Part shown: one piece after another, positions 20,595 through 47,366 of the stretch
Numbering within the stretch: the first letter of the stretch is position 1
How the letters are laid out: the number at the start of each line of letters is the position of its first letter
Assembly (NCBI GenBank): GCA_018389105.1
Contig: JACATO010000317.1
Location: forward strand, 2,451,001-2,515,000
DNA from: Nautilus pompilius
Taxonomy: Eukaryota; Mollusca; Cephalopoda; Nautilida; Nautilidae
Direction of reading: 5' to 3'
Length of the DNA: 64,000 nt
The notes under the pieces: model-generated
Told to the model about the DNA's origin: nothing
The model's database searches: none
What the model saw: the letters and a program-made list of their open reading frames with translations, nothing else
Position numbers and translations under genes: made by a program

Positions 20595-21380
20595 CTCTCT
20601 CTCTCTCTCTGTACTGACGTCATCTCTCTCCATATCTCTCTGTACTGACGTCATCTCTCTCCATATCTCTCTCTCTCTCTCTGTACTGACGTCATCTCTC
20701 TCCATATCTCTCTGTACTGACGTCATCACTCTCTCTCTCTGTACTGACGTCATATCTCTCTCTGTACTGACGTCATATCTCTCTCTGTACTGACGTCATC
20801 ACTCTCCTCTCTGTACTGACGTCATAATCTCGCTCTCTCTGTACTGACGTCAATCACTCTCTCTCTCTGTACTGACGTCATATCTCTCTCTCTGTACTGA
20901 CGTCATCACTCTCTCTCTCTCCTGTACTGACGTCATCTCTCTCCATCTCTCCTCTCTCCTCTCTCTCCTCCTCTCGCTCTCCCTCTCTCTCTCTCTCGTA
21001 CTGACGTCATCTCTCTCCATCTCTCTCTGTACTGACGTCATCTCTCTCCATACTCTCTCTCCTTCTCTCTCTCATCTCTCGGGTACTGACGTATCTCCCT
21101 CAATCCTCCAATCTCCCCTTCTCTCTCTCTCGTCTCTATCTCTCCGCCTCTTCTCCTCTCTTCATCATCTCTCCTCCTCTCTCTCTCTCTCTCTCGTAAC
21201 TGATGGTCATCTCTCTCCATATCTCTCTCTCTCTCTCTGTAATGACGTCCATCTCGCTCTCTCTGTACTGTACGGTCATCTCCCTTCTCTCTCTGTACTT
21301 AGACTGGACGTCATCACTACTCCTCTCTCTCTCCACTCCATATCTCTTCTCTCTCTCTCTCTCTCCATATCTCTCTCTCT
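20595..21380 (-). repeat. Composite (CT)n/CRE array A (14 perfect TGACGTCA)
   Basis: This is a (CT)n tract interrupted at short intervals by GTACTGACGTCAT. I count 14 perfect TGACGTCA octamers between 20615 and about 21040, then several decayed ones (for example TGACGTCC) to 21310. Read on the minus strand the unit is ATGACGTCAGTAC(AGAG)n, identical in plan to arrays D and F, so this array is inverted relative to the other five. It lies about 6 kb upstream of SLC22 exon 1. Confidence 0.95.
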
Positions 21381-22750
21381 TTGTATTTGATATAAACTCA
21401 ATAGAATCATTTCGTTCTTCTTTCGCTGAAAATGGATCCGAAATAAAAGAAAATTAATTGGACTTCATGGTATCGACGATAATAGGCAAGATCTGAAGAC
21501 ATATATAGCTGTCGTCAGAACCAGCTGCTAGCAGGCAGTCACGGCTGGTTCCGCGTGATCTGGCGTGTTTACGAATCTTGCAGTTGAGCGAACTTAGAAA
21601 AGTCGGGCTTACCGCGCTGACAAAAACCTGTTCCATCTGGACAGGAAATCGGCGCTTTTCTTACCACTGCCTTAGAAAGAAAGATCCTTTTTCGGGACAT
21701 TGCCAACCTGTTGTCTTTAGTAAAGGGTAGCGATATATTGAGATAAGGAGCTCTGAAGTGGTAATTAAATCGCCCTGCCGATCAGAAAATATTTAAAAGC
21801 AACAATCAGTTCACGGCAGCATTCCTATGATAGCATTTTTACGAGGTTTATTAACGCAAAGCTGTAGGCTTGAACTTTGTCTAATCTTTCAAACACTAGC
21901 GTGCAAGTTGGTGTCCTGGCGACATTTGTCAGCCACTCAAGGAGGTTTGTGTATTATTCTAGGCGCGGCTGCTCTGAAGATTCACGGAGGCTGAAGTTGT
22001 GTGTGGTTCAGTTCTTTACTCAGGGTTTTATACGTTTTCGTTGATTCCAAGAATATCTGGCGAGCCTTGCAAGTCTGCGAAAACAATGAAGTTTATTCTT
22101 AGCTCTATCGATCGTCCACTCTGCAGATCGTAGTCGCTGAGGGTCAAGACGGGCCCCGGGGTAACTAACTCTAACTGCAGTCCCCTCCTCGTATAGTATG
22201 GTGATATACTAACATACCATTGTCGTCTAGTGGGTCCCGGCCTCGAGATATTTACCCCGGTTACAGACCACTGCTCCCCCGGCGGCCCTAGTGGTAAGCT
22301 GCTGTAGTGTCAGAAGTTGTGTCTCTTTCTGGGTTCGAATAGATGTCGAGCTTCTCTGGTCTACAAAGCGAGCTGTCTGGTATGGTTTTCTCTGACGTTT
22401 TTTTTTAATTTTTATTTTAGCCTTTCGTTTACCGTCTCGCCTGCGTGTTCTTCAGATGAACTGTTGTTGTTGATCGCTAGAATGTTGAGCCCCCAACGGT
22501 CCACTTCGACAACTCGAGCACCTGGTCTTATCTGCCACTTGGCGTAAACGCAACGACCAACTCTTATTTCTTTTCTTAACCATCAAACATGGAGGTCAGT
22601 CAGTTCCTGGTGGTTTAGCGTATTACACTGTCATTTTGTAATAAGTACACTGAAGCTAATATTACTTCATTCCAGACTTGATTAAGGAAAAGAATACAGT
22701 CTGCCAACTTATTAGGCAATTAAAAACTTTGTTTGTGCGCCTGCTTCCTA
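21381..22750. other. No gene seen; contains a tRNA-like SINE head
   Basis: Non-coding. The only recognised item is the tRNA-like segment near 22281-22345. Confidence 0.5.
22281..22345 (+). repeat. tRNA-like segment, probable SINE head
   Basis: An A-box-like GGCCCTAGTGGTAAGC is followed, about 45 bp later, by a B-box-like GGGTTCGAATAG. The spacing fits a tRNA promoter, but no acceptor stem pairs, so this is not called a functional tRNA gene. Confidence 0.4.
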
Positions 22751-22876
22751 GAGAGAGAGAGAGGGATGACATCAGCATAGAAATATGACGTCAGTACAGA
22801 GAGAGAAACGACGTCACTACATAGAGAGAGAGAGATGACGTAGGTAAGGGAGATACGACGTCAGTACACAGAGAGT

Positions 22877-22948
<72 letters not shown>

Positions 22949-22954
22949 AGAGAG
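22751..22954 (+). repeat. Composite (GA)n/CRE array B (mostly decayed)
   Basis: A (GA)n tract with one perfect TGACGTCA (in ATATGACGTCAGTACAG). Four further sites are one base off: TGACATCA, CGACGTCA twice, and TGACGTAG. The right half is nearly pure (GA)n. Confidence 0.9.
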
Positions 22955-25396
22955 TATCAAAAATGAAAAATGTTTCGGATATTAACAATAACATAACAAA
23001 ACAGCATCTTTGTGTGTGCTGATGTGGAAACAGCAGCTTCATTTCGGATTCAAGCACTGTTGATATTGCTGATATCAAAAGAATGCATATCGCTAATAAC
23101 CTTCACATGTGCGTGTTTAAGAAGAAATGCAGACACGACTATTTCTATACGTATCTCTCCATTTCTAAATATGTGTATGCAACAGGCACCAAGAAAGTGA
23201 GGTAGCTGGAAATTAAACAAAGGAATTGTGACCGAGATTCTACGTTGATTTGAATGACAACTCCTGGCTTTATGGCAAAACGAAAAAAAAAATATATATA
23301 TGATCTACGAATTCTTTTTTATGGTGGCACATAGATAAACGAAAGCTGAAAGACACTGGCACTGACGGAATCAGTGACGTAACAAGCAAAGCTTGCCTCT
23401 ATTGCCAAAAGTATTTGGGAGCCCCTTCCTACATACCGACAGACTTAAAACATTCTAAATTTAATTTAAATCAGTCGCTCTGTTATTAATGGAAAAATAA
23501 TAGGAACAGCTTAGAATCAAATTTTTTTGTGCTTTCATTTGAGCAAAAACCGTCAATCAATCTGTCTACATTAATTTTCCAAGTCTTTTCAGGCTCTGTT
23601 GTAAAGGAAGCTGGGGCTTCCAGTCTTTCCTGGTTGACAGAATGACAAAGATGTGTTTCAATTAGTTTCATTTTACTGAAAGACCTTCCTCACGGGCAAC
23701 AGTTGTGGAAAGAGCAAGGACTAGACAAAGTGGATCGCATATTAGAAAATCTGAGGAAATATTAGTGTAGTTAATAGCAAAGCTGCTACATTTCTGACGA
23801 CGAACTACGAACATTTGACAAGCTCTTGTAGCACGGATGAAGAGAAGGTAATCAGTTCTTGCACAAATGCGGGAGTCGAATTATTTTGGTTTTGGCGAAT
23901 GAGGTTTGCTCACCTTTTAGGCCATCACCACTATTGAAGCCATTCTAGTAGGGTTTAAGAACTGAAACGAGAAGCTCCCCCTCCCGGTAGTCTCTGAAGC
24001 CTCGCTTTCAACCGGGAAACAACAATATCGAGGATGGCACGGAACACATTTACGCAAAAACGGTTCTTTGCGTCTTTCATTTGGTCACATGCACCTGAGC
24101 GCTTCTCTTCGAATTTTGGTTCAATACCTCACTTTTCAGCTATTTACTTCTTTCTTCTCTCCAGGAACTTTCCACGATAACCTATCTTCCTTGTTAATGC
24201 AGTCCAAGTGTCTATTTCAGCTGGAAAAACTGATGACTTTGGCTCGTCATACTTCTGAGGCAGCGTTGGCTGCAGTAAATGTGTGAGATGGGATGACAAG
24301 CGCAAAAACTCGAATTTTTCCATCTTTTCTTTCAAAGTCCCGACTCCACGTCTTCCACATTTTTTCAGGATAATGTTACGCAGTGCATTCATTACATACA
24401 CAAATCGAAGCCCGATTCTAATGGCGGAAGTCAACCGTCCTAACCGTCGTAGGAAGGATTACGTGTTTTTACATTGGCGGCCGATTTACTTCCTGAATTC
24501 ACCAGTATGTCACAACCATTGATGTAGTTGCAGAAAAAATATATAAATCTGTTGAAGAACAAAAAAGAAAGGGGGGTTGAAAATTCTATTACTTCTTTCT
24601 CGACATTCTTTATAATAAAAAAGGAGTTCAAGTTATGTGGCGAACAGTCCACATATACGTTAAGCTGCTTGTCAGAAGTACGTTTTTTGAAAATCAGAAT
24701 AGATGTCACTTACACCTGAAGCATCGCCATATCCTTGACCACGATATCTATTTAGCGTGAGGATTTTGTTTTTATCTCGTCAAGAAATTTTTAAAAACTC
24801 AGCTTCCAAGTAGACGTTAGAGTCCCGGAAAGCTCTCAGGAATTCCCGACAGTACTGTTCGATCTCTCTCATTCTTGACAATAAACACAATATCTAATAA
24901 TTAAACTAATTCGATCCTGATTCGTGTCTAAAATAGATACAAGAAAGGAGCCCTAAAAATATTTGAAGATATTTTTTCTCAGGTTTCGGTCAACTGTTTC
25001 ATGAATGGATGGAATTTTCTCCAAAATACCAACTTTCTGACAAAATATTTCCACTGCCAATTTTTATATGGCCACGGAAGGCGAGGTTATTTCTTGATAC
25101 TGCGAGAACAATTTCAATAAGTCTTTTTAAAATTTATTTCCAGATATTCTAGCATCCATCTCCAGCCCTTTATCTATAGTTTTATGTCGCTATTAAATGA
25201 GAACGATACCGTAAGTTAAATGTGCGTGAAGGAGACATTTTATTCTCTTTGATTTCCTTTGACAAGTTTTTCCTAATCTCTTATACTGTCATCAGTTCAA
25301 GAACTTTGAAAATGTTCGATTACTGTACTTTTATCATCAAATAACCATACGTGCTTCACAACAAGTACAATCTAAGTTTGGAAGACAGCAGAGCCA
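22955..25396. other. No gene seen
   Basis: Mixed AT-rich sequence with only short open frames and no recognised repeat or exon. Confidence 0.5.
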
Positions 25397-25400
25397 TGAG

Positions 25401-25470
<70 letters not shown>

Positions 25471-25737
25471 GTCAGTAGAGAGAGAGAGAGAGAGAGAAAG
25501 AGATGACGTCAGTAGAGAGAGAGGAGAGAGAAAGAGATGACGTCAGTAGAGAGAGAGAAGAGAGAGAGAGAGAGGAGAGAGAAGAGAGAGAGAGAGATGA
25601 CGTCAGTAGAGAGAGAGATGACGTCAGTAGAGAGAGAGAGATGAGAGATGGAGGAGAAAGAGATGACGTCAGTAGAGAGAGATGACGTCAGTAGAGAGAG
25701 AGAGAGAGAGAGAGAAGAGATGACGTCAGTAGAGAAG

Positions 25738-25777
<40 letters not shown>

Positions 25778-26179
25778 TGACGTCAGTGAGAGAGAGAGAG
25801 AGAGAGAGAGATGACGTCAGTAGAGAGAGAGAAGAGAGAAAGAGATGACGTCAGTAAGAGAGAGAGAGAGAGAAGAGATGACGTCAGTAGAGAGAGAGGA
25901 GAGAGAAAGAGATGACGTCAGTAGAGAGAGAGATGACGTCAGTAGAGAGAGAGGAGAGAGAAAGAGATGACTCAGTAGAGAGAGAGATGACGTCAGTAGA
26001 GAGAGAGAGAGAGAAGAGATGACGTCAGTAGAGAGAGAGAGAGATGACGTCAGTAGAAGAGAGAGGAGAGAGAAAGAGATGACGTCAGTAGAGAGAGAGA
26101 GAGAGAGAGAGAGATGACGTCAGTAGAGAGAGAGGAGAGAGAAAGAGATGAACGTCAGTAGAGAGAGATGGACGTCAGT

Positions 26180-26210
<31 letters not shown>
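25397..26210 (+). repeat. Composite (GA)n/CRE array C (19 perfect TGACGTCA)
   Basis: This is the densest array. GATGACGTCAGTAGAGAG recurs with (GA)n, GGAGAGAGAAAGA spacers in between. I count 19 perfect octamers, the last at 26115-26122, plus three broken by single-base insertion or loss. The unit lacks the AC found after GT in arrays A, D and F. A higher-order repeat (GTAGAGAGAGAGGAGAGAGA then AAGAGATGACGTCA) is visible, so part grew by duplication of longer blocks. The end of the array is 675 bp upstream of the SLC22 start codon. Confidence 0.95.
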
Positions 26211-26884: not shown

Positions 26885-27163
26885 ATGGAAGATGCTTGCT
26901 CTACGGCATTTGAACAGATCCTCGACCAGTCGGGGCATTTCGGATTTTTCCAAAAGAGAATCTACTTTCTTACCTGTCTGTTGCAAGCAGTGTGCGCGTC
27001 CATACTTGGATACACAATGTTCAGCCTGGATACTTCTCCAGTCAGTCGTCTTCAGTTCACTGCTGATCGGGATCTGTCTTATGTGGATTTTCCCGGAAAC
27101 CTAACAAATAACGTGTCTCTGCTTCTGGAATCATCTGCTGAACAGAAGAACTTCCTGCAAAAG
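26885..27163 (+). CDS. SLC22-like organic ion transporter, coding exon 1
   Basis: The exon encodes the N-terminus of a 12-helix major facilitator transporter of the SLC22 (organic cation/anion/carnitine) type, which moves small organic solutes across the plasma membrane. The first in-frame ATG at 26885 has a good context (ACAACAATGG). The start, AFEQILDQSGHFGFFQKRIY, is the classic amphipathic N-terminus of the family. A first membrane helix follows at residues 26-47. The beginning of the extracellular loop carries two N-glycosylation sequons (N72-L-T and N76-V-S). The exon is 93 codons, ends in phase 0, and has a strong GTAAGT donor. The usual first loop is longer and Cys-rich in vertebrate members, so this is a divergent subfamily. 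Confidence 0.85.
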
Positions 27164-30100
27164 GTAAGTCTGCATATCACTGACCTTCCGGGGTTACAGG
27201 GCGTGCGGTGATGCTGAACATTAATTCCAATGATAGAACGTAACTATATATTCCCTTTTCCAAATCATGTTATTTTCAACATTATCGCACACTATTTTTA
27301 CTTTAATAAATCGAATGAAGGTACAAATTATTATTATTGAAATGATTTACATTTTAGGCTAATCTTTATTTAGTTACCGATTTTAAGAAGACAATATAGA
27401 TGAGTTTATGAATATTGCAAAGATAAAAACACAACTCGGCTATTACAGATGTAATGCTTGCCGTAATGCTTCAAAAATTTATTTGTAAAGTGGAAACTCT
27501 GTCTAGATTCTTATTCCTGAATAATCCTTATACACACAGAATAATCGCCTATAACGTTCAAGCGCGCTATTTATAAGCTTTTAAAAAAAAATTAAACGGT
27601 GTGAATCAAATCAAGAATCATGTTGTCAAGTAGTTCTCTCCCCTGGGAGCCTGGTGTATGTATATCTCGGTGGAAGCTCGTCCTACAGTTGCGTCATCCG
27701 ATGATGTGACCAATAGTCGCGCACTCTTAGAAATGAGATTCGGCCCAGCCGGACAGAACAATCTGGTCGACTGTAACTCCATCTCTTTAATTGTCTGCAG
27801 CGAAAATGAACTACCAAAGAGTTATAATTTAAACAAAATTTTTTTTTTTTTTTTTTGCTTTCAGTTTTAGCAAGAAATGTCGCATTAGGCCTCATTCCCA
27901 ACAGTAAAAGGTTGACCTTTAATTGGGCGGTACGCGCGACTTTATCATCGAAATGCTCGCCGATGGGAGAGCTACTGGTTTTGGAGGTCTATAAATTAAT
28001 AATAATTTTTAAAAACCTAAGCACTGCTACGTTTATCTAAAGGGTATCAGGCGAACAGACAAATAAGAAATGACTCGTAGACGTTAATCTTTCAGAATCT
28101 GAGAAGACCTCGGTGGTTTTACGCTGATTTAATGCGATGGTTATCACCCAGAGAGAAAGGGGGAAAAAATCAGGCGGGATCAGTTTCGTCTCCACGCACC
28201 ACTATAACGCCTGAAGGATCGATTACTAATAAAAGAAACCAGTCGCTATTAAATTTAAAATCAGCACAGCAAAGTGTGGTTGAAAGTAATACCAGTACGA
28301 TCGGATGTCCGGACGGATCCTCTTTAACCTGTTGTTCGTTTTTGGTGTTGTGCGGTGTTTAGGGGTGTGTATGTGAACTTGCATATGTATGTGGGTGTAG
28401 CTGGATCGGTTCCACGACCGGCCGTCTCAGCTGCTTATAAGTGAGGTCTTATTTCGGCCTATGTTTTTGTTTAGAGTGTACCTCAACCTAGCGAGAGCAT
28501 AGAGCAACGAGACTCGAAGCACCAACAAGAATTTCAAGGCCACACGGAGTAAATGAGTTTAAATATCCCAACTAACTTCAAACCATGACGTCATTTCGGG
28601 ATACAGTACTGAGCAATGGAATCAGACTCGCTCCTCCGTGGAAGAGAATATATTCCCCCCACCCACAGCGGTCTTTCACCGTACCCGATCTATTTACTTT
28701 CATGGAGCTCATGGTCAAGGTTGATTACCATAGTTTATTCGGACTGCCGACCAATTCCTTTTTAATACTCATGCAATCGCTTAATGTATTTTGTGTGTAC
28801 TTTTTTTGATGGAGATATGGCCCTTCACAGGCTGGGGTCTTGCAAAAGCAACTTACTGTATTCCTTATAAATACGAAGTAACATGGGTGTCCGCTTTGAC
28901 CTTTTGGCCTTCGGCCGGGTTCGGTTAGACTCGTCTTCTCTTGCCCGATTCACCACGCTAGCCCCCCCCTCTTGCCCTCCCCAGCGGGGACGCCCAAGCA
29001 GCTAAAACGACCGACAGAACTCCGCCCTTTTTTTTCTTTTTTGTCCCTCGACCAGGAAAAGACGGCGTCAACCGTTTAACTGCCACGACGACAACTAAAG
29101 GGTTAACCCTCCTTCCGGCTCAACCCCGATCGGGAAACCTGCGCCGATCCGTCGTCATACTTAACAATTCCAGTCGTCTTCGGGCCCCCCCCCCCGCGAG
29201 AGATTTAACTACTCCCGAAGACCGTTAACAGTTTACTCCGTGTAATAAATATCCCGCCGCCCAAGAAATAGTGCGATTTGGTAAAAACGTCAACATCACC
29301 TGACGGCTAAATAAGGTCCGGGGTTTTCGTCAGGTCTGTGAGAGCGCACTGACGAAGAAGAGGAACGCGCGACCATTTGCCAGCTGCTGCCCCACCCAAC
29401 CTTTCGCCGTTTGACGTTACTCCGCTTTAATTCGCCCGTCGTGGGCGTCCCGGAATTTGCGGATTCCACCTCGGTCACGGTGTTGGGGTTCCGCAATGAT
29501 GCCGAAAATATCTTCGAACCGTTATTGAATTTCGAAGGCTCACAAACTTGAGGGAGAACTCTCGCGTGACCAACAGATGTTAGCGAGCTGACTGACAGCG
29601 CAGGGAAGGAAATAAAACATGGCGCGTCAGCCGCCCTTCTGTTTCAGTGATTTATTGGTCGTTGTCTCGCTTTTCCACCCTCCCTCCTCCTCCTCCACAC
29701 TTCTAACTTGCTATCACCGCTGTCCTCCACGTACGCGGCGATCAAATATCGGTAATATAAGGCTGATTTATTTCTTCAGCCTCAGAACTCGGTCTACTTA
29801 TTGCCGACCGCTCACGTTCGTACTCAAAAAACATGGCCGACGTGAGATCACGGGCCACATTCAATGGCGAGACGATTTTAAAGGAATAAACCATAAAAGC
29901 ACTGATGAGACCAGCCGAACTACTGGGTAACGTATGGATTTATTTATTTATTTTTTAAAGTTTATTTTATATAGCTTTCGCTTTTTATCGACATATTTAA
30001 ATGATGCGACATTTCACTGGTTGGAATAAAATAATAATATAAAGGCCGCGTTACGTCATCATCACAAGCTGTGAACAGTCGCGCATGCACCGATGAGGCG

Positions 30101-31907
30101 ACATTTGTCGGAGTGTTTGGCTTCCGGTTCGAGAAATTCTGGGAACGTGTTGACACCATAAGGTCAGAACTCCCAGTGAACTTTTGAACACAGCGTTACC
30201 GTGACAACGTAAAGAATCCCGGGCGGGAGATATGCGCACAGTTTATGGCGCCACAAACACCGAAATATCTGGTTGAGATGGGGATGTGTTTTTTTGGAAA
30301 ATGTGTTGATAGATCATCAGAAAGCGAAATTCTTAATGAAAATCATTTAAGGAATTAAAATGCACAATAAACGAGGATGAAAATATGAAACTGAAGGAAT
30401 CGATTAACGAATGGAATATTTTTTTTTTTTGGCAAAGAAGAAGACATGACAGAGTTTTGCGGGAAAAAAAAAGAACATTAAAAATATCCTTTAAATATCT
30501 GATGGGTCGATATCTTCACCCCTAAAGTGAAATTACCCACTTGAAGGAGAAAAGACAATAGACAGCAGAAAGATAACATCCTGTTGTCGCTAAAAGTCGC
30601 CGTGGAAGGAAAAAAAACAGCACAAAATTTTTTTTTTTTACCCTAGAAAATAATTAAAATCTAAGGCTTTTTTAAAATTTTGCTCCCATTACAATATTAT
30701 CGATTTAAGAAATGAAAAACACGGTGTCCGAAAATAATGTTTCTTGGGTTTTTTTATTTATTGCAATTACAACAATCCCGTACAGAATAGCTTTCATCGA
30801 AACGTCTGGTTCCGCCATCCTTTTGTACGACTGGAGTCTATGGTCTGGAAGCGGCTAACGCCATCTTATTTGCTGATATCATATTTGTAACCGTTTTCCC
30901 TGTATTCCATTTTACCAAATAATTTCAAATATCGACAAGGACAGATTTATTGGAATCCATACTGCCCGTCACCACTACCGGGATCGTAGTCAGTCGAATT
31001 CCTACTTCCGTTTGTCACGCAGTTGCTGGAAGCAGGGGGAGAGACCAGTAAACAGGGAGTCGAGCCGACCCTTGATATAATTAATTTTTCATTTATTTTG
31101 AGACAGCCTTGTGTTTCTGTCTCAGCAGCTGGAGACAATTAAGCGATGCAGTCCTGGTCAGACAACTTTCTAATTCTGGCTGTTCACGCAGCTACCTGGA
31201 GGGATCAGCGAAGACGAGAGAGATGGAGTGGAGAAGAATGGGGGGGGGGCGGACGGGACGAGACGGGTGGAGACAGTGGAGAAAGTAACACTGTCTGTAA
31301 AGCAGTTAATGTGCGCTTACACAGCGTTAGCTGGAAAAAAAAAACAACAACTTAAAATAGTCTGCAAATAACGATCTTTTACTTTTAAAAATTTGTTTAC
31401 GGTTGCTGAGTGTAAATGTGCTCTAGGTAGTTATTTATTTTCACTCTCGGGTAGAAACTAACAACCGCCACTTCCGGCGGGCACGTGCCCAGTTCCACTC
31501 GATCGTGATGGCGACAACTACCGGTGCCGAAAGCGGAATGTTCCAGTAAATATTGTTACATCGGCAGGGACCGGAACTTATTCCACTTTTTTTTTACCCC
31601 CCCCTCCCACTCAATCATTCGTATTTTTTTCTCTTCCAGTGTTTACCAATCAATTCTATTTAATGCTCTTCACGCTCAATTATAGTTTTCATGTATTTCA
31701 GAAGACTCGCAATTTTAATCCATCCCGGCTAAAAAAGATGGGCGTCTGAAAAATTAATTGGAATGTAAATTCATAGAATATTTAAAAAACAAAACAAAAA
31801 CAAATTGAAACTGAGAAGATTTTATTTGAAACACATTGTTTGAGAATAAAGGAGTGACACTGGGTTAAAAAAAAATAATAATTGACATTAAAGTTAAGTG
31901 AGTGCAT
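27164..31907. other. SLC22 intron 1, first part
   Basis: This is the start of an 18.1-kb phase-0 intron. It contains an isolated CRE at 28586. GC-rich CpG-containing sequence runs at about 28.4-30.2 kb. I saw no exon. The open frame at 29619-29930 lacks family resemblance. Confidence 0.5.
28586..28593. promoter_or_regulatory. Isolated perfect CRE in SLC22 intron 1
   Basis: TGACGTCA in the context AAACCATGACGTCATTTCGG, about 1.4 kb after exon 1 and outside any array. Its function is inferred. Confidence 0.45.
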
Positions 31908-32126
31908 TTAGAGGAAAACGCCTTCCCTAGCTTTCATGGCAGCAAACGAGTCATTAACATCTTCAGAATTAATATTTCTTACCAGTCCATTCTCATTGCC
32001 TAAAATTGTTAAATCAATTAATCTTTCTCGGCCCAAGGTGCTCCTCAGATGATTCTGGATCAACTTCAGCTTACTCGGGGGCCTCTCAACTAAAGCAACA
32101 GTCTCGACGCCTAGCGATAAATACAC
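31908..32126 (-). mobile_element. hAT transposase C-terminal fragment
   Basis: On the minus strand the 72-codon frame contains SKLKLIQNHLRSTLGRERLI, then DLTILGNENGLVR and FAAMKAREG. This is the C-terminal dimerisation end of ZMYM-type hAT transposases, the same part kept in the element at 11601-12770 but in a clearly different copy. No inverted termini were found. It is a fragment inserted in SLC22 intron 1. Confidence 0.75.
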
Positions 32127-34640: not shown

Positions 34641-35786
34641 TCTTCATTTCCTGCCGAAGCCGGAAGTGGCAGGCGAAAGAACGGCAACGCTCGTTTCGTA
34701 GCAACCGTGGTGCCACGCATTTTCTCCGAGATGATGCATTTGCTTTCCAGACGAAATCTTGCTGTTCTGGACCTTTAAAGAGTGAGCAGCAACCAAAGGA
34801 TGTCGCGGTGTAAGTTTGGCTTCCGTTGCCATGGGGCAGCACTATGGTTGTACTCGGAGTCGTGTTCGCGTTGAGCGCAACTCGAGAGTCTAAGCCTAAT
34901 TCGCCGTTCCTAACTTGAAAATCCCAGCTCACGTGGCTCGACGAGAAGTGGCGGCTGTCTGACAGGTACCGTGTATACTGCACGAGCGACGCCACCCCGG
35001 ATGTAAACCGAACGCCGAGACGGTGGATTACTTAAATAATCTAAAACTGCAATTGCGAACGAGTTGCAGTGGTATTAGTGATATTATCTTTCTTACGGTA
35101 GAAATCAAGTGCGAATAAAAGTAAAAATTGGGATGTATGTATTGCAGATGGGATGGTTACATAATTATATATTAAATCTGCTGAATTGTTGCGTTTTATT
35201 TCTAATTACGTGCACATCTATGACGCGGGCCGGTACTGTTTCATGGGTTAGGTCGTACCAACGACGCTTACGTTATTAACAGTAACAATATAAATTAGTT
35301 GCATTTTGATTTCAGTTCATATATGTATAATATTAATCATCAGTATCGCAGAATTCAGATTGTAACAAACAAACATCTACATGACCGACGGTTACATTTA
35401 CTAAAATCGCAGAGCATTTAATGGCGCTGGTTATTTGAGCTGCTAAGGGTGTAGCTAAAAGTCGGCATTTTGTGCGGGAGTGACTATTAATTGTTAAACA
35501 AAAAAATTTGTTTTAAAATTGTTTTCTACCCTTGTGCAGTCAGGGAAATTCATCAATAGCCAAAGACTCACTTTCTGGAGTAATTTTCTCTGTTTTCTTG
35601 CGCAGAGGCACTGCCGAGGGGTAGCATACCTCATAGCATCCGGAAATGTTTTTCTTTTTTAAGAAAATTTCTATAAAGATCTAATAGGAGGAGGCTCAGG
35701 ATACGCCACGCTAACACGGCCTGAAGTCTGTACCACTGGGTCTGTATTTTGACAGAATGCAGATCTGTGAATACTGATCAAATTTC

Positions 35787-35920
35787 GAGAGAGACGAGAG
35801 AGGTGACGTCAGTACAGAGAGAGAGGTGACGTCAGTACAGAGAGAGAGGTGACGTCAGTACAGAGAGAGAGGTGACGTCAGTACAGAGAGAGAGAGAGAT
35901 GACGTCAGTACAGAGAAGAG
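35787..35920 (+). repeat. Composite (GA)n/CRE array D (5 perfect TGACGTCA)
   Basis: Five perfect TGACGTCA sites occur in five units of GAGAGGTGACGTCAGTACAG or GAGATGACGTCAGTACAG. The first is at 35804-35811. Units are very uniform (period about 24 bp except the last), so this array looks recently expanded. It lies in SLC22 intron 1. Confidence 0.95.
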
Positions 35921-37310
35921 TCTGTAGAGTCGTAAGGGTTAATCTTTATCTGCCTCTTTTACCCCCCGCCACCAATTTCGCCAACAGTCCCCTTTTCCCT
36001 TCAGGCCACTCTTTTGTTTTCAATTTTGTAAAAATTGTTCCACAAAAATATTGTTTTTTTTTTTTTTTTAAAGTTGCACACGTGCGAAATTTCCCTTCAG
36101 CTTTAAAAATAATAAAAATGTTGTAGAACGTACGAATGGGTCGTGAAACCCGAATGATTAAACCCAATCGCTTCTGAGATCGTAACTGCTGATCATCCGT
36201 ATTTCGCTGCCACGAGAGTCTGCTGCGCACAGAGAGACAGAGCAGACGCTGGCTGATAAGACTCTAGCCGCAGTCCAGACAGCCTTCCCTCTTCCAACGC
36301 AAGCAGCTCCATCCACTCGCAGGTGCAGGATATAAGGCTGCTTTATTTTTGTGTGTGTGGCCTTACCGATGACATGTTTGGAACGAAGAGGAAACAGGTT
36401 TGTTGCGCAAAGCTTGGGATGCTAAACCTGGCTGCAGAGGTCCCCCCCCTCAACCTCAGCTCGGCGTGAACACAACGCCAGAAAGAAGTAGGGACTGACG
36501 ACCCCTTCTCGGCGCTCGGCGATGCACGACAGACGCTTCGATCGTTTTCTCGTATTAGATTGGTTTCTTCACACGTGGGCTTTAAATGGCGAACCCTTCA
36601 GACCGACTAGGCTTATTGCATTTAGAAATTATAAAAAGAAAGGTAAAAAAACAACAACAACATTTTAGCACCCAGTATTTATTTCTAATGCTCGGTTATT
36701 CTCTTTGTAGACGGGCACTTAGCTAATTAAACAGCAAATAAGACATCAAGTTTCGATCGTCCAACCAAGCAGGTCTCGTCACCCTTAAGGGGCCACCGCA
36801 GAAGAAAGGATAAACCTTGGAACTCCGGATTAAAAAAAAAAAAAACTCAAAATAAAAACAAACGAGAAAAATATCAAAATAATTCTGTTTGTTGTTTTTT
36901 TAAATAAATTATTTATTTATAAAATCAAGAAGCAAAAGATTGGTGATAATAAGTTTCTGATTTATCCGAATACTTCATCTTTTACCAGATTTTCTCTTTT
37001 CTTTTTGTAATTTAAAAACTAAGATGTTCTAAAATAAAAGTGATGCAGGAAATCCATTTGTAAAAGACGGAACGAATATCTTTCTGTGGAACAAAAAATA
37101 ATAGCAGAAACAGCTACTTGGTCATTAGAATCCGCTTTTCGTGCGTCGTGAAGTTCACGGTTGAATGGCTGACAGTCAAGTAACTGGATTGGCGAATTAG
37201 TCCAGTGACCACGTGCCACTCAATTACCCATGGACTTAACCATCGAAAGTTTGAACCGACAAACAAATTCCGGAAATAAGCAAATTTCCAGAACAGCCAC
37301 CTCTAGTCGC
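35921..37310. other. SLC22 intron 1, between arrays D and E
   Basis: No exon or recognised repeat apart from short T and A runs. Confidence 0.5.
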
Positions 37311-37403
37311 AAGAGAGAGAGAGAGAGAGATGATGTCAGTACAGCGAGAGAGAGAGAGAGTGAGAGAGAGAGTGAGAGACACACAGAGAGAGAGAGAGAG
37401 ACA

Positions 37404-37435
<32 letters not shown>

Positions 37436-37679
37436 CACAGAGAGAGAGAGAGAGATGATGTCAGTACAGCGAGAGAGAGAGAGAGAGAGAGTGAGAGAGA
37501 CACACAGAGAGAGAGAGAGACACCGAGAGAGAGAGAGAGAGACACAGAGAGAGAGAGAGAGACACACAGAGAGAGAGAGAGAGTGAGAGGACACACAGAG
37601 AGAGAGAGAGAGACAGACAGAGAGAGAGACAAGACGAGAGAGAAGCGAGACACACAGAGAGAGGGAGAGAGAGAGAGAG
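37311..37679 (+). repeat. Composite (GA)n array E with decayed CRE (TGATGTCA)
   Basis: This is a (GA)n tract with ACACAGAG interruptions. It contains two copies of GATGATGTCAGTACAGCGAG, the array unit with the central CpG changed to TG, as expected after methyl-CpG deamination. No perfect CRE remains. Confidence 0.9.
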
Positions 37680-37794
37680 CTCTAGCTGCTCCGAGCTTGT
37701 TGTTGGGGCATGTAATGAAACTGGGTATAAAACGTTTTTCATTCTTAACGGATACCAAATATTGTGGAATGCTGATCCCAAGCTTCTTGTTGAA

Positions 37795-37796
<2 letters not shown>

Positions 37797-37829
<33 letters not shown>
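37797..37829. repeat. (GT)n microsatellite
   Basis: An uninterrupted 33-bp GT run next to the left end of the mobile element that starts near 37846. Confidence 0.95.
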
Positions 37830-37834
<5 letters not shown>

Positions 37835-37845
37835 AAGAAACATAA

Positions 37846-40474
37846 CACTGTCCAACAAAATTTGATGAATTTTCTTTTACATAGAATGTTAAATGTGTAT
37901 TTTATTAATTTTTGGGTGCCAAATTTGAATTCGGCATTCTTTTTTGGATTCAACGTGTAGTTTTTTTTTTAATTTACATTTAAGTTAAAAAGAAATGAAA
38001 TGAAATGGAAAAAAATGAAAAGACTTTTTATACAATTTGATCATAAAATGATACAAAAAATTATATGATTTATTATTCAATTGATACAAAATTACATTTT
38101 TATTGTTTTTTAGACATTTTTATAATTATATTTTTATATTTTTTAGACAATCAAGACAAAGAGGCAATGGTTAAAAAGTGTATTAGGTTAAACTTTAAAA
38201 GTGTTTGGCCCTGCAGGATCTTTTATGGGAGACAAACTTGGTATCACGCACTAGACACCAACAGTAGTCAGCAAGTAATGCTGGCGAAGGCTTTCCTTTA
38301 TACCGTGCTTCCATATCACTAATTTCCTGATGAAATCTCTCCCCGTGTTCATCAGATACATCAGACATATTGTCAGGGAAAAAGTCTAGATGAGAATCGA
38401 GAAAATGAAGTTTAAGTGACATATTACAGCCAAATTTTTCAAAGTTTTTAATTAGATCTTTGACCAGGAATTCAAAATTTGAAGCTTTATGTCTCCCAAG
38501 AAAGCCACTGACACCATTTCGAAAAGAGCACCTTGCTGCTTTTTGGACAGGGGTCAGAATGTTTTCGAAGCTTTGATCATTTAAGTACCTGTGGTCCAAC
38601 AAATATGCCTTCTGTAATTTTGGCAGTGCTAAGTTTTGGAAATTTTGCTTTTCATTGCCTCACAGTCTTTATCAAGTGCCTTCACAAACTGCTTTATAAC
38701 TCATAATTTAATGTGAAGGGGCGGCAGAAGAATCTTATTTGATGGCACAAGTGGGGAATTGGCAATATTCTTGAGCCCCACTGTTAATTCCTTGCGTTTA
38801 GGCCAGTCTTTGACTTTGTAGTGGCTGTCTTTTGCTCGTGAATCCCAAAGGCACAAAAAACAGCAAAACTTTGTATATCCAATTTGTAGTCCAGTTAACA
38901 TTGCAATAACTTTTAGATCTGCACAAATTACCCACTGATGTTTATTGTACTGAAGAGCATTTAGAATATCCTTTAGATTGTTGTATGTTTCTCTTAGTAC
39001 CACGGAATGCACAACAGGAACAGATGGTAATTGATTCCCATTATGCAGTAATACAGCCTTCACACTGTACTTTGAGGCATCAATAAAAAGGCGCCATTCA
39101 GAAGGATCATGTTCCAATTAAAAAAAATGAAATAGGCCTTTGATGTCATGGCAAAAACAGAGGTCATACTCCATTTTTAAAAAAGACTAAATTTTGTGAA
39201 CGTTTGCGATAAAATGATATTTTAACACCTTTTTCAAGTACGTTTTTCTCCTTAAGTCTTGATGCCAGAATTTCACTCTGTTCTTTATTCAACTTAAGAT
39301 CTCGTATCAAATCACTTAAGTCATTCTGTGTAAAAGGTTGTGGTTTCTCACCTAATTCTGATGCTGATGCAATGAATTTGGGATCTTTGTTCATAGTGCT
39401 GCTTTCATTTTCGGTTCGGTGTCTTCAGAATTAGTATCGTTGCCTTCAGGCAAGAAATCAGATTTCTTGGGCACTGGAATCGAATGTGAATGTTGTACTG
39501 GACGAGAAGCTGACCGAAGATTGAGATAATATATATTTCCAGTTCTAATGCCAGTGAGAGAGAGACATTAGTACAACAAAAATGGCAATCGTCAATGTGA
39601 TTTTGTGGTTCTCGCCAAATCATGGGAATACCGAATGGCAGAGAGTAGCCAGTGTTGAGCCACATGCTTAGCCTTGAAACACAGTTTGTACAACAATATT
39701 GCGGTGCCCAACTCGCCGAATCCACTTTTGTATCAAAATAGGCTGTATAGAGATTTATAATATACTTATTTATTACACGCCGCTTCTTTTTAGCAACATA
39801 TTCACCGCAGATGTAACAAAAATTATTCTTGTCATTCTTACAGCAGCGACCAGAAGTTGAAGTTGCCATTGTGTCATTTATTCTTATCTAAAAAGAAACA
39901 ATATAGAGTTAGATAAGTGAGTAGTAATCTTATAATTATAATAAGCTCAAATGTAAGTCTGTAATTAATAGTGATTTGCTTTTGAATCAGCAATAATCAA
40001 AATCTTAAATTTACACAAAAACTACCCATTAAATGTATAAAAATAAATGCATTTTCGTAATCCTCGTAAAATTTTAGTCTGGAAACATGCATTACATCAT
40101 GTGTTTAAAAAAATTGTTGTACTGTGTAATTGAACATATATTTATATACTGTTTTATATTTAATATATACTCTTGTATTTGCTTTACCCTCCTTTGATTT
40201 GCACAAACTAGAATTTGTTTACTCTTAAAAGACTGTGGTAAATTAATTAGTATATGTTCGAATGATCATTATTCTAGCATTTCTTTCTTTTCAGAAAAGT
40301 TACTAACAAAATAGTCGAGTTACCCTACATTTTCTGCCAGAACTAAGCATCTGTAATACACAAAATGCTTCGTTAAATGCAAACAAGCGAATAGAAAATA
40401 GATGAGCTGGTCCGAATGTTCCATTACCAAATTTGTTTGTTGTTTTTTTATTTGCTGAAAATTTACCAACAGTG
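37846..40474 (-). mobile_element. Uncharacterised mobile element family, copy 1 (broken)
   Basis: On the minus strand, protein pieces spread from 39869 to 38195 make up a protein of roughly 560 residues. An N-terminal Cys-rich part has CYICG, a CCTNC pair, PFGIPMIWREP and a DCHFC pair, suggesting zinc binding. The core has LFIDASK, then ICADLKV with a CCFLCLWDSRA insertion, then ILLPPLHIKL. The C-terminal part has LHFLDSHLDFFPDN and VSDEHGERFHQ. The spaced D, D and E residues resemble an RNase H/DDE fold; this is inference. A related copy lies at 62528-64000. The left end CACTGTCCAACAAAATT resembles CACTGTACAACAAATT of that copy. The right limit is uncertain. The copy is broken in several places and looks old. 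Confidence 0.6.
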
Positions 40475-40770
40475 CAAACCATTAGATTTAGATTGGAATT
40501 ATCGGGCGTATGCACTAGAGAATAGCAGTTTCCAGTGTTCTAAGTACACCTGGTCGGCTGATTTCTTTTCTTCTCTATTTGCACAACCGCTGGAGAAAAA
40601 ACAGACCAGAGAAGCACTAAAACCTGCAAGGTTGTGATATACTACTATTACCTAGGATTCGTTTTAAAAGACATAATTATCAATAAAAAATTAGAAATTT
40701 TCAGATTGACATTGTTTCCGAGCTCTTTTAAAAGTGAGATTTGAAAATGTAGCGACGGCGGAATATATTA

Positions 40771-41875
40771 GGTTGTGACAAACGTTTTGTCGTTTTTTCT
40801 TACCGCAACAACGAGACTCCATATCGTTGATGAACGTGAAGTTTATTAATCAAAGTCAGTTCCATAACAATCAATACCCTTCTGCCAACGAGTTACAAGC
40901 GCATTTATACCATTTTGAAAAAAATCTGGATTTCTGGAGTCGATAAACTGTAGGAAGGCAGTTTCAATTGCTGCTTGGTTGGAGAAGTATTTCATACGGA
41001 GGAAGCTGTCGAGGTGTTTGAAAGGGTGGTAGTCTGTGGGAGAAAGGTCTGGTGAATAGGAAGCTGGGTGAGGGAGAACTTCGTACCCCAACGTGTTCAG
41101 TTTCTGATGAATAATGTTTAATTCACGACAGTACCTTTCAGCTGTGATGGTTTCGCCAGGTTACAAGATATAGTGGATGACATCAGCTGCAGTCCACCAG
41201 ACAGTGACCATGACCTTGTCTCTGTCAAGCCACTGTGCTGATCGTTTGCGATTGTGGTAAAGGACATTTTTCATCTCATGTGATGATTCCGTCAACAAAT
41301 GCGTTTTTGTTTCTTATGAGGACCGAAGAGTAGATCTCCAATCGACGATTTTGTTGCTGTTCATTCAACTCGTGAGCCACCCACTTGTCAATCCTTTTCA
41401 CCTGATCGATTGCGTCAAGATGTCAGGAAACAGTTGCAATGCCTATATCAAGTTCTCCATCAATTTCTCGCTTCAGTCGGTCGTCATCAAAGATGGAAGG
41501 ACGTCCGCTACGTTCCTTATCTTCGAGGCTCACATCTCCTGGTCGAAACTTTGCAAACCATCGTTGTACTGTGCGCTCATTCGCTGTGTCCTCGCCCCAT
41601 GCCTGCTTAATGTCACGAGTTGCCTCACTCGCTTTGTGGCCCAGTTTGAACTCGTGAAGCAAAATGGCACGAAAACGTTTCTATCCATCCTTCACTCAGA
41701 ACCCTGAAACAAATATCCATTTTGTGATTTTTAAAAAGGTAGGTTTTGCATAATGTATGCCAAAGCACACGCTACAAAACGATATATAACTTATCTACAT
41801 ATACCTTCACAAGCATGCAAAAAATGAACCCCAAATTAACGTAATATAAAAACCGACAAAACTTTTGTAACGATC
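40771..41875 (-). mobile_element. Hsmar1-like mariner transposon fossil, copy 2
   Basis: A 1105-bp element with inverted ends (GGTTGTGACAAACGTTTTGT on the left, GATCGTTACAAAAGTTTTGT on the right in reverse) and flanking TA (40769-40770, 41876-41877). The minus strand holds transposase pieces from about 41700 to 40846: HEFKLGHKASEATRDIKQAW, NERTVQRWFAKFRPGDVSLE, then [20 protein letters not shown] and a C-terminus near RWQKGIDCYGTDFD. It is the same family as copy 1, but two internal deletions have removed sequence after the helix-turn-helix and the segment with the second catalytic Asp. It is therefore inactive. It sits in SLC22 intron 1. Confidence 0.9.
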
Positions 41876-41877
41876 TA

Positions 41878-42559
41878 ATATATATAAATGCCTTGTATGC
41901 AGCTCACCGTCTTGCGCAAATATCAAAAGCACCAAGTTGTTTACTGTCTTTATGACGGAAGAGCTATGGTGTCGATCTTACATTTTTTAAAAGACTGAAA
42001 ATTTTAATATGCATATACCGCATTGGAATTAATAAGGTAAACTATTACGAAAATAGTTTTGGTGTGAAGTTAGGGTTAGTTTTATTAATGTATTTCAGTG
42101 TTTTGATCCGTCATGGTCCGGAAACACGTTAGAATTACCGTGTTCCAACACGAACAACAAATCGATTCCCTGATGTCACAACGTTATCTTTTCAATTTTT
42201 ATGTTTCTCTCACATACGTACTGGGCACAGATATCTTTGGATATTGAAATTTCATATTTAATTTTGTTCAGAAACATACATATTAATCAAGAATTACTAA
42301 AAACACTTGTTTTGTCATGTTAGCTCATGGTTTTCTTTACAGCATGTTAATAGAAGAATGGCGTCACAGTGTCATGGAATACAAAACCACAAGATATTGG
42401 TGGTGTATTTTTGGGAGAAAAACCATCTTAGTACTCTAAGCAGCTGGTATATCGTCTGCGCGTGCTTGAAATAAGATGTCTCATTAATCCGTCTGGTTAG
42501 GGTTTGCCACTACTGGTTGGTGTAGGTACTGGGAAGGGTGATTCCTGAGCCTTACCTGT
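41878..42559. other. SLC22 intron 1, no gene seen
   Basis: AT-rich non-coding sequence with no recognised element. Confidence 0.45.
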
Positions 42560-42830
42560 AAAAAAAGATATACTTATTAGATGTACGATCTTGGGACGTG
42601 GCTGACAGAGTCCATTGTGGCGATGCCGTTAGCTTTGTGATGACCATATCCGCATGTGCCCTGGCATTGTCGTCCGGGAACACGAATCTTGGCATTCGTT
42701 ATTCATAAACAAGTAAAAAGTGTCTGCCTCACAAATCCATCCGGTGAACCGTGGCCGGGGAAGTTCTGTCGGTTATAGTTCCTCTCCGGACCATTACACT
42801 GCTGCAGCACGCGAATATCTGGCGCGTGAT
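42560..42830 (-). mobile_element. Tc1-like transposase fragment (tentative)
   Basis: On the minus strand PDDNARAHADMVITK, followed in another frame by ANGIATMDSVSHVPRS, resembles the second catalytic Asp region of Tc1 proteins (DNARxH ... GIxxMDWPxRSPD). At least one frameshift separates the two. The limits are not defined. Confidence 0.45.
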
Positions 42831-42983
42831 TCTGAATGGTGAAGGTGGTTCATGATGGTTTATCCGGAAACTTTCTGATCGCCTGGGTAGCAGTGACCAA
42901 CCACCCGGCCACGCAAGGCCATACGATTATCAGTTCACTATGGGCATCTGTACAACGGACATGACTTCGACCGGACCTATTGC

Positions 42984-42991
42984 TGACGTCA
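42984..42991. promoter_or_regulatory. Isolated perfect CRE in SLC22 intron 1
   Basis: TGACGTCA in the context ATTGCTGACGTCACCGGTGG. It is outside the (GA)n arrays. Its function is inferred. Confidence 0.45.
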
Positions 42992-45278
42992 CCGGTGGTG
43001 GCGCATGTGCAGCCAGCTGACTGCCTGCAGCCTTGCCGTTTGCGGTGATGTCGACCGGCCTGGAATCTGTTTGGAAGTGACGAGAAGTCTCTGAATGCCC
43101 ACCGTATGATTCATTTGTTTAGACTAGGTGGAGTAATGTTGTGAGTGAGTGCCTGTTATCTGCGAGCAGACGACACCGGACCGGGAGGGAGTCATACGCA
43201 AGCCGAACCCTGACATCCCTCGATCTTCGTGTCTGGTATATATGAGATATTGAGGGACTTTTGTCTTTGTGCGATATTTTCGTCTGTAGGGGCTTCGTAG
43301 TGCATTCCAGCTGTTCCCAGTTCGCTGGTAAAGGTAGGTGAACGACTACGAAACGTAGTAAACACCAGTGGTCCAGGAAAACTGCTAGAACGGAAAAGGT
43401 CCATGGTTACCAGCGATAAGTGGAAAGCACCCAACCGTCGCAGATGGGCGTCCTGTCCGGCGAGTGATCACCAAATCTGCCGCAGAGCGGAAAGGCCCAT
43501 CACCAGATCAATAAAATTCTTTGACCACAGACGAATGGCCGATAGCAAGAAGGTATTTACGATTTACCAGCGACGCTGCCTCTGTACTAAATAGGTATGG
43601 CAGCAGCAGTTAAGTGAGAGGCACGGGTCACAGGACATCAGAGGCTATCAGCTTTTCTTTCGGCAGGTCTTTCTAGCATTAATTGGTTACTGAGATTTAA
43701 TGTTTACTGGTTACTATCCATCATGTAAAATCACATGAGCTGCGTATTCACTGTAATAATTTTAAAACAACAACAACAGACCAGGAGTATTTCTTTAAAT
43801 ATTTTGAAAATGGATACCAAGCAACAAAACTAAAACGACTACAATAGGCGTTACAGACCGGAGCTTATCGCTTCGGTTGTAATGACCTGGACATATTGTA
43901 ATCGATCATGGTAACTAGATCACTGGTTAACTGCGTATACTTGTACTTAAAATAATTTTATTTGATTACTATTTTAAACAGGGCTAACTTTTAGTTCGTT
44001 GTCTGAGGCATTCACTAAACAACATTAAATTTTGCTTTACACCCTGTTGTTAACCTCTGGCTGGGCAGGGACGCGCTCAGCATGCTAACGTTTTCCTTGT
44101 TCGAGTCTCTGCTCGGGGTTTCAACGCACCCCCCTCCATGTTCTGTATCGTTAAACTCACCTATACGAGTAAATATTACAGCAGTACGTCCAAAAGGAAT
44201 CTCAGGACATGACTACAGATTCTTTTGTGCCTGATCAATGAAATCTTGAATGGGGATCGTTTTCGTAACATTCTGTTTTTCGATACACCATCTGACGGGA
44301 AAAGAATAAGAGGACGGATACCAGATGGAATATTTTGTCAGTCAAACAAAGCCGTGGACAGTCAGACTGGCAAAGATCTTTGACTGTATCAGATGCTTGT
44401 GCGATAATTTTTTTTGCCATCTACACGCTATCGTTTGCTCGACACCTGCCAGGAAATCCGTGATCGGCCACGTGACTCGCCAAATAAATCTTTAAAGGGA
44501 CAGTCAGACCTAAACCACAACAAGGGGCTGCAGAGAAAGCGAATAATGCTAACTTACGCCAAAGGAATGACACAACATGTTTTCTGTAAACACGCACGAT
44601 CACCATGGTCAAGTAGCCGACAGAATCCGGTGCCCTGTAAAACTTAACCTGCAACACGGAAAGAAATGGGCCCCGACGAAGGTGAAGTAATTTCCTCATT
44701 CCTCACCGCTGTCGAGTGCAGATTCCGATAGTCCACGTTTGGTGGACGCCCCTAAATGTGGAGAAGGCGTGAAGACGCACTTTATTCGGTCCGCCTGTTT
44801 ACAGCCAACAGTTAAACGCGGTGGCTGCGGCATGATGGTCTAGCGAGAGTGATCTGTTATTCGTTGAGGGTCGCCTTCTCTCAGCGGCTTTGGAAATAAC
44901 TGCCAAGAGAACAACGCCCACTCCCAACGGGAAAAAACAAACTGACCGTACATTGTGTATCTTCTTTCGTGGGCCAACCAGAACCCTGAAAACCAGAAAG
45001 CGTACACGAAATTATCTCGACCGGCATGTCCGACCAACGTGCCCATCCACTGTCCAGTAATGCGATCTCGCTGCTACTACCTGGCGAGATCCGGTCCACG
45101 TGGTGATGGACAATCCCGTTGATCTCATGCACATCCGACTTGTGTACGCCCCATAGCTAACAACGTCTTTGAGGTACCTTAGAACACCGAAGGTCGGGGC
45201 ATTTTAAAAGTGTATAGGCGTCCTCTGAAGACAGCTACGCGCATATTGACCACGAACGATTTTACTTTTTTGTTTCAG
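42992..45278. other. SLC22 intron 1, last part
   Basis: GC-rich, CpG-containing and non-coding. A tRNA-like segment near 44055-44115 (with TTGTTCGAGTCTCTGCTCGG) may be a SINE head. The intron ends in TTTTTTGTTTCAG at 45278. Confidence 0.5.
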
Positions 45279-45510
45279 CTGGATGTACGCTGCATGGAGC
45301 TCTCTTCCAGCGACAACAGCTACTACACGGTAACAGCCACCGGAGCCCTCATCGGCGCCCTCCTGGGAGCTTTCCTGGCCGACCTGCTCGGGAGACGGAT
45401 TCTGATGTTTCTCTCTTTTGGACTCGTTTTGATTGTCCACGCTCTGATGATGGCTGCCCGGTCCTGCCTGGCTTTCATCGGTCTTCGTTTTACAACAGGT
45501 ATATTTTCAG
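45279..45510 (+). CDS. SLC22-like transporter, coding exon 2
   Basis: The exon starts in phase 0 after TTTTTTGTTTCAG and reads LDVRCMELSSSDNSYYTVTA, continuing into helix 2 and GAFLADLLGRR. That last piece is the major facilitator motif A between helices 2 and 3. Helix 3 and GLRFTT, the start of helix 4, follow. LDVRC takes the place of the family's W-D-L-V-C that closes the first outer loop. Two donors are possible 12 bp apart: ACAACAG/GTATAT (exon end 45498) and TTTTCAG/GTGAGT (exon end 45510). Both are phase 1. The longer form adds GIFS and keeps the usual family spacing to the next conserved Glu, so it is preferred. Confidence 0.85.
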
Positions 45511-47099
45511 GTGAGTTTCTGTGAGGTGTATCATCGAGGATTTACCCGATCGACCAGAGTTAAATTCTTTTGGTGCTGGATTTTGTTATTAATCACATAT
45601 ATAGATCTGAGTAGATATCGATCATTTTTAAGGGACAGAGGTCATTTCGGAAATAAAGTGAAACAACCTTGTCGTGCACAGTTTCGAATTAACTGCTACT
45701 CGTTTACTAAATCTTTAGACCTTTTCTCGCTATTACGATACTGGAACTTTTCAAAGAATATTTATATATGCAAACGTAAATAAACTAAGAATAAAAATGG
45801 ATAAATATCTCTGGGTGGCTTAGGGAAGTTTTACAGGTGCCATTCTGAAGGGCGGTGGCTCTATTGCTATAAAAAAAGGAGAAAAAAATCTGTTTTGCCA
45901 CCGCTAGCAGTTCTAATCCTGAACAAACCGTTGTTCCATTCTCCAATCCTTTTATTAATACCTCCGTGAAACCCACTCCGTCTGTTCTTTCGCGTTTTAT
46001 ATTGTAAATAGTTATAAAGGCAAGCTGCGGACATCAGCGGTCTTTGATATGCTGTCCAGAGAAACCTCCTGAGCGCTGTCGTCTGCCGCATTCAGAAGCC
46101 AGCACGCTCTCGTGCACCCTTGTCTTGTCCGGGGAATGCGTCAGATGTCGTCAGAAGTGCCTTATCTTAGAAACAGTTTTCCGTCTGCCGTAATTGGCTA
46201 AGTGAGAGGAAATAGTAAAATCAGACAAAATATCCAAATACTCGAGCAGTATAAAAACTGCGTTTACTGCCCCCTAGGAGAAAGTATGCCTCATCAAGGA
46301 CCTGCAACTTAGGAAAAAAAAAATTAAACAAAAGAGTTGTATTCCCCCCCTAAAGAAAGGAAAAGAAAAAAAAACAACAAAAACAAGGGTTTATTAACTG
46401 TTAAGCTTTATGTCACGTTTGTTTTTTTTTGTTTGTAAAAACTGAAATTAAATCTTTCCCTTTTATTTATTTTTTTAAAGTCGGGGTTAAGGTGTTGTAA
46501 AGCGTCTTATCCTGTAGCAACGCTGCGTCTTTTACACGGTAAGTAATCTATAGTAAGCACTGAAAACCTTCTATGGAAACCTCAGCCGTAACCAGCAAAT
46601 CCTTATTCCATTGTCGCTCTTAAATACGATAGATGTGATGGATTAGGGCTAGTTTCTGCATCGTGAATCTCAGATAGTTCCAAGCCTAAGCCCGATGCTC
46701 CCTGTGCAGCGCTTGTTCACCCGCCCCCTTTTTTTCTATTTTGTAATCGTACTTAAAAAAAAATTAATTCCCGTCCAGACCGAAGGGGCCCGATTTACAT
46801 TCGCGCGCGGAGCGGCTTCGTTTTGTCGGCCTCCCTTGACATGGTTTATACTCGCCTTTCTTCATCGGCAGAACGCGGGGGAGGGGGGCTTCCTCCCACA
46901 TCTAAAAGTAGTTCTGATAAGGAAAAATGCTCGTTAGGTTGGCCTCAGTTTTCAGGGTCACGCCGCCGCAACCCTCTCCCCCACAACTTGCCCGAGAGGG
47001 ACCGGCCGACCGACCCCTTCCAATTATGACGAACCAAAATCGTTAAAAACAACGAAAAGGTTTCGAGAAAAACAAAAGAAAAGCAAATAATAAATACAA

Positions 47100-47102
<3 letters not shown>
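45511..47102. other. SLC22 intron 2, first part
   Basis: No exon or recognised element. Short A-rich and T-rich runs occur near 46310-46450. Confidence 0.5.
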
Positions 47103-47160
<58 letters not shown>

Positions 47161-47245
47161 GTCAATACAGAGAGAGATATGACGTCAATACAGAGAGAGA
47201 GAGAGAGAGAGAGATGACGTCAATACAGAGAGAGATATGACGTCG

Positions 47246-47280
<35 letters not shown>

Positions 47281-47307
47281 GTCAATACAGAGAGAGATAT
47301 GACGTCG

Positions 47308-47365
<58 letters not shown>

Positions 47366-47366
47366 T
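47103..47366 (+). repeat. Composite (GA)n/CRE array F (4 perfect TGACGTCA)
   Basis: Units of GATGACGTCAATACAGAG alternate with ATATGACGTCAATACAG and ATATGACGTCGATACAG. Four octamers are perfect and two carry a changed last base (TGACGTCG). The pair of variants repeats as a block, showing block duplication. The AATAC after the CRE, in place of AGTAC, is private to this array. It lies in SLC22 intron 2, about 5.4 kb from the bZIP gene. Confidence 0.95.

Follow-up and report, generated by a model that had tools for sequence, protein, structure and literature searches.

Six composite (GA)n arrays with a cyclic AMP-response element in their unit, beside an SLC22-type gene and a CREB-family reading frame, in Nautilus pompilius

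We analysed a 64,000-nucleotide stretch of the Nautilus pompilius genome (assembly GCA_018389105.1, contig JACATO010000317.1, positions 2,451,001 to 2,515,000 of the forward strand; hereafter the window), in which six GA-rich arrays, A to F, lie within 27 kb, each with an island of the cyclic AMP-response element (CRE) type. The same window holds part of an SLC22-type transporter gene and a CREB-family open reading frame (ORF). Read on the GA strand, the array unit is (GA)n-A/G-TGACGTCA-GTAC-(AG)n or a variant of that, where TGACGTCA is the perfect CRE, a sequence whose binding by CREB/ATF proteins is an established property. Array A is on the minus strand and B to F are on the plus strand, the polarity of the unit relative to the GA strand being constant. 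All six arrays probably belong to a single composite (GA)n satellite family that has been dispersed, and the CRE would be an incidental part of its unit that recent amplification has kept. Positions below are those of the window.

20594..21382, minus strand: array A, 19 units, 14 with an intact CRE; periods 31 and 72; GTAC variant
22751..22956, plus strand: array B, 5 units, 1 with an intact CRE; a 62-bp run of pure (GA)n comes next
25398..26210, plus strand: array C, 22 units, 19 with an intact CRE; private GTAG
35787..35921, plus strand: array D, 5 units, 5 with an intact CRE; period 23; GTAC variant
37311..37680, plus strand: array E, 2 units, both TGATGTCA, 0 with an intact CRE; period ~127
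47103..47366, plus strand: array F, 6 units, 4 with an intact CRE and 2 with TGACGTCG; higher-order period 58-62

The window contains 50 perfect copies of TGACGTCA, against a mean of 0.68 and a maximum of 3 in 100 dinucleotide shuffles; a preliminary description of this DNA had put the chance expectation at about one. Five of the six arrays hold 43 of these copies (14 at 20.6-21.0 kb, 1 at 22.8, 19 at 25.5-26.1, 5 at 35.8, 0 at 37.3 and 4 at 47.2-47.3) and 7 lie outside, so that a count by position reproduces the earlier figures exactly. The unit and its private variants were likewise recovered as first described, with GTAG in C, AATAC in F (where all six units read AATAC or GATAC, the ATAC variant) and TGATGTCA in E. 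The statement that almost every unit carries an intact CRE holds for C and D only, the overall figure being 43 of 59.

These figures come from a census in which the arrays were split at pyrimidine-containing islands without presupposing a CRE. Of the 101 islands obtained, 59 align to the unit template and are counted as units, and the remaining 42 are short interruptions such as T, TAT or CACAC, among which there could be former units too degraded to be recognised. All six arrays thus consist of tandem units that fit one template, as expected of descent from a common ancestral unit, and GTAG in C, ATAC in F and TGATGTCA in E are locus-specific, homogenised variants of the kind that marks a satellite family.

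Every (GA)6+ or (TC)6+ run in the window (45 of 45) is inside one of the six arrays, and every array has the island, which argues that tract and island spread together and that the island did not invade ready-made microsatellites. When the 400-bp flanks of the arrays are compared, no convincing similarity emerges (the best match is 23 bp at E 0.005, the longest 43 bp at 74%). A larger duplicated segment was therefore not involved, and we rejected the idea that the arrays are themselves duplicated segments. Private variants, different periods and the lack of common flanks all support the earlier proposal that the arrays expanded independently.

One unit with one polarity at six sites, in flanks that are otherwise unrelated and in a window rich in remnants of mariner-like and other transposons, is also what might be seen if the arrays were pieces of a mobile element (for instance one with internal tandem repeats) and the CRE had served the element's own transcription. 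We regard this as improbable, however, as neither flank comparison nor inspection by eye found a common element sequence, terminal repeat or target-site duplication beside the arrays, and the array edges pass straight into unrelated DNA. It is very improbable that the GA tracts are recombination or conversion borders with an incidental CRE, as has been proposed around the Sp185/333 genes of sea urchins, where, in the part of the source available, every gene of the clusters has GA short tandem repeats around it, and these repeats are suggested to promote duplication and deletion (PMC5103432). The two cases are alike in that a gene locus of a marine invertebrate is surrounded by several GA repeats, and the higher-order repeats in F and E do show exchange within arrays. 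There is, however, no segmental duplication between the arrays in the window and neither a gene cluster nor a segmental duplication at them, and the same excerpt reports no CRE for Sp185/333 (PMC5103432).

Conservation of the CRE core was examined by counting changes against the consensus of each array, together with the differences of each consensus from the template. Among 25 distinct changes, 15 fall in the 8 core columns and 10 in the 4 non-GA columns that follow (P = 0.53 against 8:4), and the changed cells number 17/472 in the core and 10/236 in the adjoining columns; the core is therefore not seen to be kept better than its neighbours, in a comparison of small numbers that is sensitive to where the aligner placed gaps (a single 7-base insertion in A was scored as core) and to the loss of over-decayed units. 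Broken CREs make up all five units at one end of A, four of the five in B and both in E. In F the same TGACGTCG stands in two of the six units, copied along with the higher-order repeat. The variants GTAG (array C) and ATAC (array F) have reached the same completeness within their own arrays as the CRE. The earlier hint that the arrays 'keep' their CRE is not supported, in view of these similar rates of change, the broken copies and the equal fixation of non-CRE variants; among the possibilities offered at that time (a landing platform, an enhancer, a decoy or a neutral composite satellite) the neutral composite satellite is favoured. Selection on the CRE core is not detectable, and weak selection is compatible with the 25 events.

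A founding segment of the form (GA)n-A-TGACGTCA-GTAC-(AG)n would, on the satellite interpretation, have given rise to copies that reached several sites, GA tract and island probably dispersing together. Each array would then have been enlarged separately by slippage and unequal exchange, with the spread of its private variant, and the CRE would persist wherever units are young copies and decay wherever amplification stopped, presumably without selection. Array A, with fourteen intact units at 20615-21040 and five broken ones in a row at the opposite end (~21083-21382), suggests a young amplification beside an old remnant. Fresh units should still bind CREB/ATF in open chromatin, and an array that precedes a gene, as C does, may influence that gene by accident. 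Methylation of the CpG within the CRE prevents binding (PMC11333461).

Several points weigh against the satellite interpretation. Modest selection on the core would escape notice with only 25 change events; the arrays show slight clustering in the window and are not plainly even (span P = 0.046); the same 64 kb also contains a CREB-family ORF; the genome-wide spread of the family is one that we infer; and CREs are in excess outside the arrays as well, with 7 copies against 0.65 expected, about tenfold (Poisson P 6e-6), where none of the 23 further palindromes with this base composition exceeds 2.

18763, 28586, 42984, 48504, 52081, 53726, 54159: solitary perfect CREs, with no array context

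The neighbouring bases of these seven contain neither GA nor GTAC adjoining the CRE in any instance (0 of 7), and we therefore rejected the idea that they are array relics. Their excess suggests that CREs are put to ordinary use in this genome, irrespective of the arrays.

By anatomy the arrays belong with the composite or interrupted dinucleotide microsatellite and minisatellite families, with which they share a GA core, a repeated non-GA island, locus-private variants and higher-order periods. They differ from these in that the island holds a perfect consensus regulatory palindrome and in that all GA tracts of the window carry a single island family; in function they are like nothing proven. 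A protein search with an array translation gave 13 matches to E 10, and in the 9 of these that were read, by eye, no CRE-type unit was seen (the search is insensitive to low complexity) and three predicted proteins, P0124, P0127 and P0133, resemble translated GA arrays with other repeated islands. Such arrays with other islands apparently exist, and the architecture hence needs no CRE. Coding sequence was rejected as an explanation of the arrays themselves, whose frames are open merely since GA repeats give RERE/SLSL and whose periods include values that three does not divide, such as 23. The arrays have no match in Rfam, and a 20-mer has none in prokaryotic genome contigs, which says little, since these are prokaryotes; a single 17-base match among viral contigs, in a contig without a surrounding GA array, was taken as chance. 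Searches of the literature found TGACGTCAGTAC in no paper and, for TGACGTCA with 'satellite DNA', nothing about such arrays by title, and further queries listed nothing on this unit, although other wording may exist.

The arrays are distributed along and in front of a partial gene of the SLC22 (organic cation transporter) type.

26885..60313, plus strand: SLC22-type gene, partial, recognised by tblastn with P0121/P0122, splice-like borders and a Sugar_tr/MFS_1 match of one exon
26885-27031, 45282-45521, 56038-56235, 57455-57688 and ~60182-60313, plus strand: its exon matches (tblastn)

Joined translations of five exon pieces retrieved three proteins. An unnamed protein and an Argonauta hians organic cation transporter (the closest named relative) ranked highest, with 46% and 43% identity over 96%. 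By tblastn, no counterpart of residues 50-105 and 368-525 of the relative P0121 was found in the window. Array C ends 675 bp upstream of the SLC22-type ATG, with A and B farther upstream; D and E fall after the first exon match and before the second, and F lies within the intron that runs from 45.5 to 56.0 kb.

Other repeats and transposon-like sequences seen in the window are listed here.

542-1752 (HTH_48 match) and 40795-41865: a mariner-like element in two copies, pieces 81-91% identical
38195-38659 and 62799-63263 (minus strand): related open frames without a Pfam match, alike over 140 bp at 72%, which look transposon-linked
8145-8928, minus strand: DDE_1 transposase remnant
13374-13702: a 101-bp unit three times in tandem, beside an (ATA)n run

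The CREB-family ORF is nested in the same SLC22-type intron as array F.

52739..53578, minus strand: CREB-family ORF of 279 aa (52742-53578) plus stop, in one exon; the open frame spans 52739-53650
53726..53733, no strand assigned: perfect CRE, 148 bp upstream of the CREB-like ATG
54159..54166, no strand assigned: perfect CRE, ~580 bp upstream of the CREB-like ATG
52081..52088, no strand assigned: perfect CRE, ~650 bp past the CREB-like stop codon

It is not a chance frame, since 303 open codons have a P of 4e-5 at its composition and its third-position G+C is 85%, against 29-34% G+C in the flanks. The encoded bZIP is of the CREB type (PF00170, E 4.5e-13; CREB1 bZIP structures, E 2e-17), and its basic region is intact, with N231, A234, A235, C238 and R239 invariant in the homologue alignment. 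The segment before the bZIP matches molluscan CREB from the kinase-inducible domain (KID) to Q2, with Haliotis rubra as the best of a set of 120 sequences (36% over 120 residues, E 8e-9). These are the best 120 of 1324 proteins found in the homologue search, and none of the 120 exceeds 40% identity over most of the length. The ORF has KRKLC where CREB has RRPSY in the alignment, and so lacks a KID with a protein kinase A (PKA) site; Pfam gives no match to PF02173 (KID), and a pattern scan finds [RK][RK]x[ST] nowhere in the ORF. RR[PG]S[YF] is present in 110 of the 120 homologues listed, and at least 3 of the other ten have RQPSY. The reading frame is intronless and collinear with the KID, Q2-like and bZIP parts of molluscan CREB, which bears on a recent retrocopy origin; no poly-A tail was seen by eye downstream, and target-site duplications were not searched for.

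The 600 bp upstream of the ATG contain two perfect CREs, against 0.0076 expected (P 3e-5, for a stretch chosen after seeing the sites), and TTACGTCA lies between them. A CREB gene with promoter CREs and self-regulation was reportedly described by Meyer et al. in 1993, to judge by the title as cited in PMC11333461. In the excerpts available, ICER is a repressor made from CREM (PMC12381921, PMC11333461), and its gene has CREs in the promoter and regulates itself (PMC12381921). Compared with ICER as it appears in these excerpts, the ORF is alike in having a CREB-type bZIP without a working kinase-inducible domain and CREs in its own upstream DNA; ICER, in contrast, comes from an internal CREM promoter with loss of the N-terminal domains, whereas the ORF is a separate single exon that retains a collinear, altered KID and a Q2-like part. 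From its sequence we infer a CRE-binding factor that PKA would be unable to switch on via the usual site. By analogy it would possibly be a repressor with feedback, ICER-like and self-limiting.

The presence of a CREB-family ORF in the window leaves room for a regulatory reading of the arrays. As clustered CREs they would form an enhancer, a landing platform or a CREB/ATF sink, acting on the SLC22-like gene or on free factor; 43 perfect sites, the end of C at 675 bp before the SLC22-like ATG, F in an intron and an ORF with an intact bZIP basic region in the same window are consistent with such a role. GGAA microsatellites offer a precedent, being repeats that act as copy-number-dependent response elements with measured binding (PMC4122435, in the part available); there too many transcription factor sites lie in a polymorphic simple repeat, one of them upstream of a gene. 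For GGAA both binding and the effect of copy number were measured. In the present arrays no conservation of the core beyond that of the flanking columns is seen, E has no intact CRE and B has one, and the spacing of units is irregular, and we find a function as clustered CREs unlikely.

A more elaborate arrangement would be a linked control unit, in which a CREB duplicate without its PKA switch sits in a transporter intron beside arrays with up to 43 perfect sites, the arrays would buffer or store the factor near its CRE-bearing upstream region, and array length would set the local cyclic AMP response. We think such a unit highly unlikely. Its appeal depends on the distribution of the arrays: were they local, the CREB neighbour would be a striking coincidence, and were they to recur every 10 kb genome-wide, it would be none.

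If the family is genome-wide, slippage alone would scatter many perfect sites for one transcription factor, and the genome would provide a natural test of coping with decoy sites. If it is local, the linkage of CRE arrays to a CREB duplicate without its switch would make this a locus of a new kind. Whether the arrays are local or genome-wide, the CREB-like ORF is worth attention, because CREB is central to work on long-term memory in molluscs.

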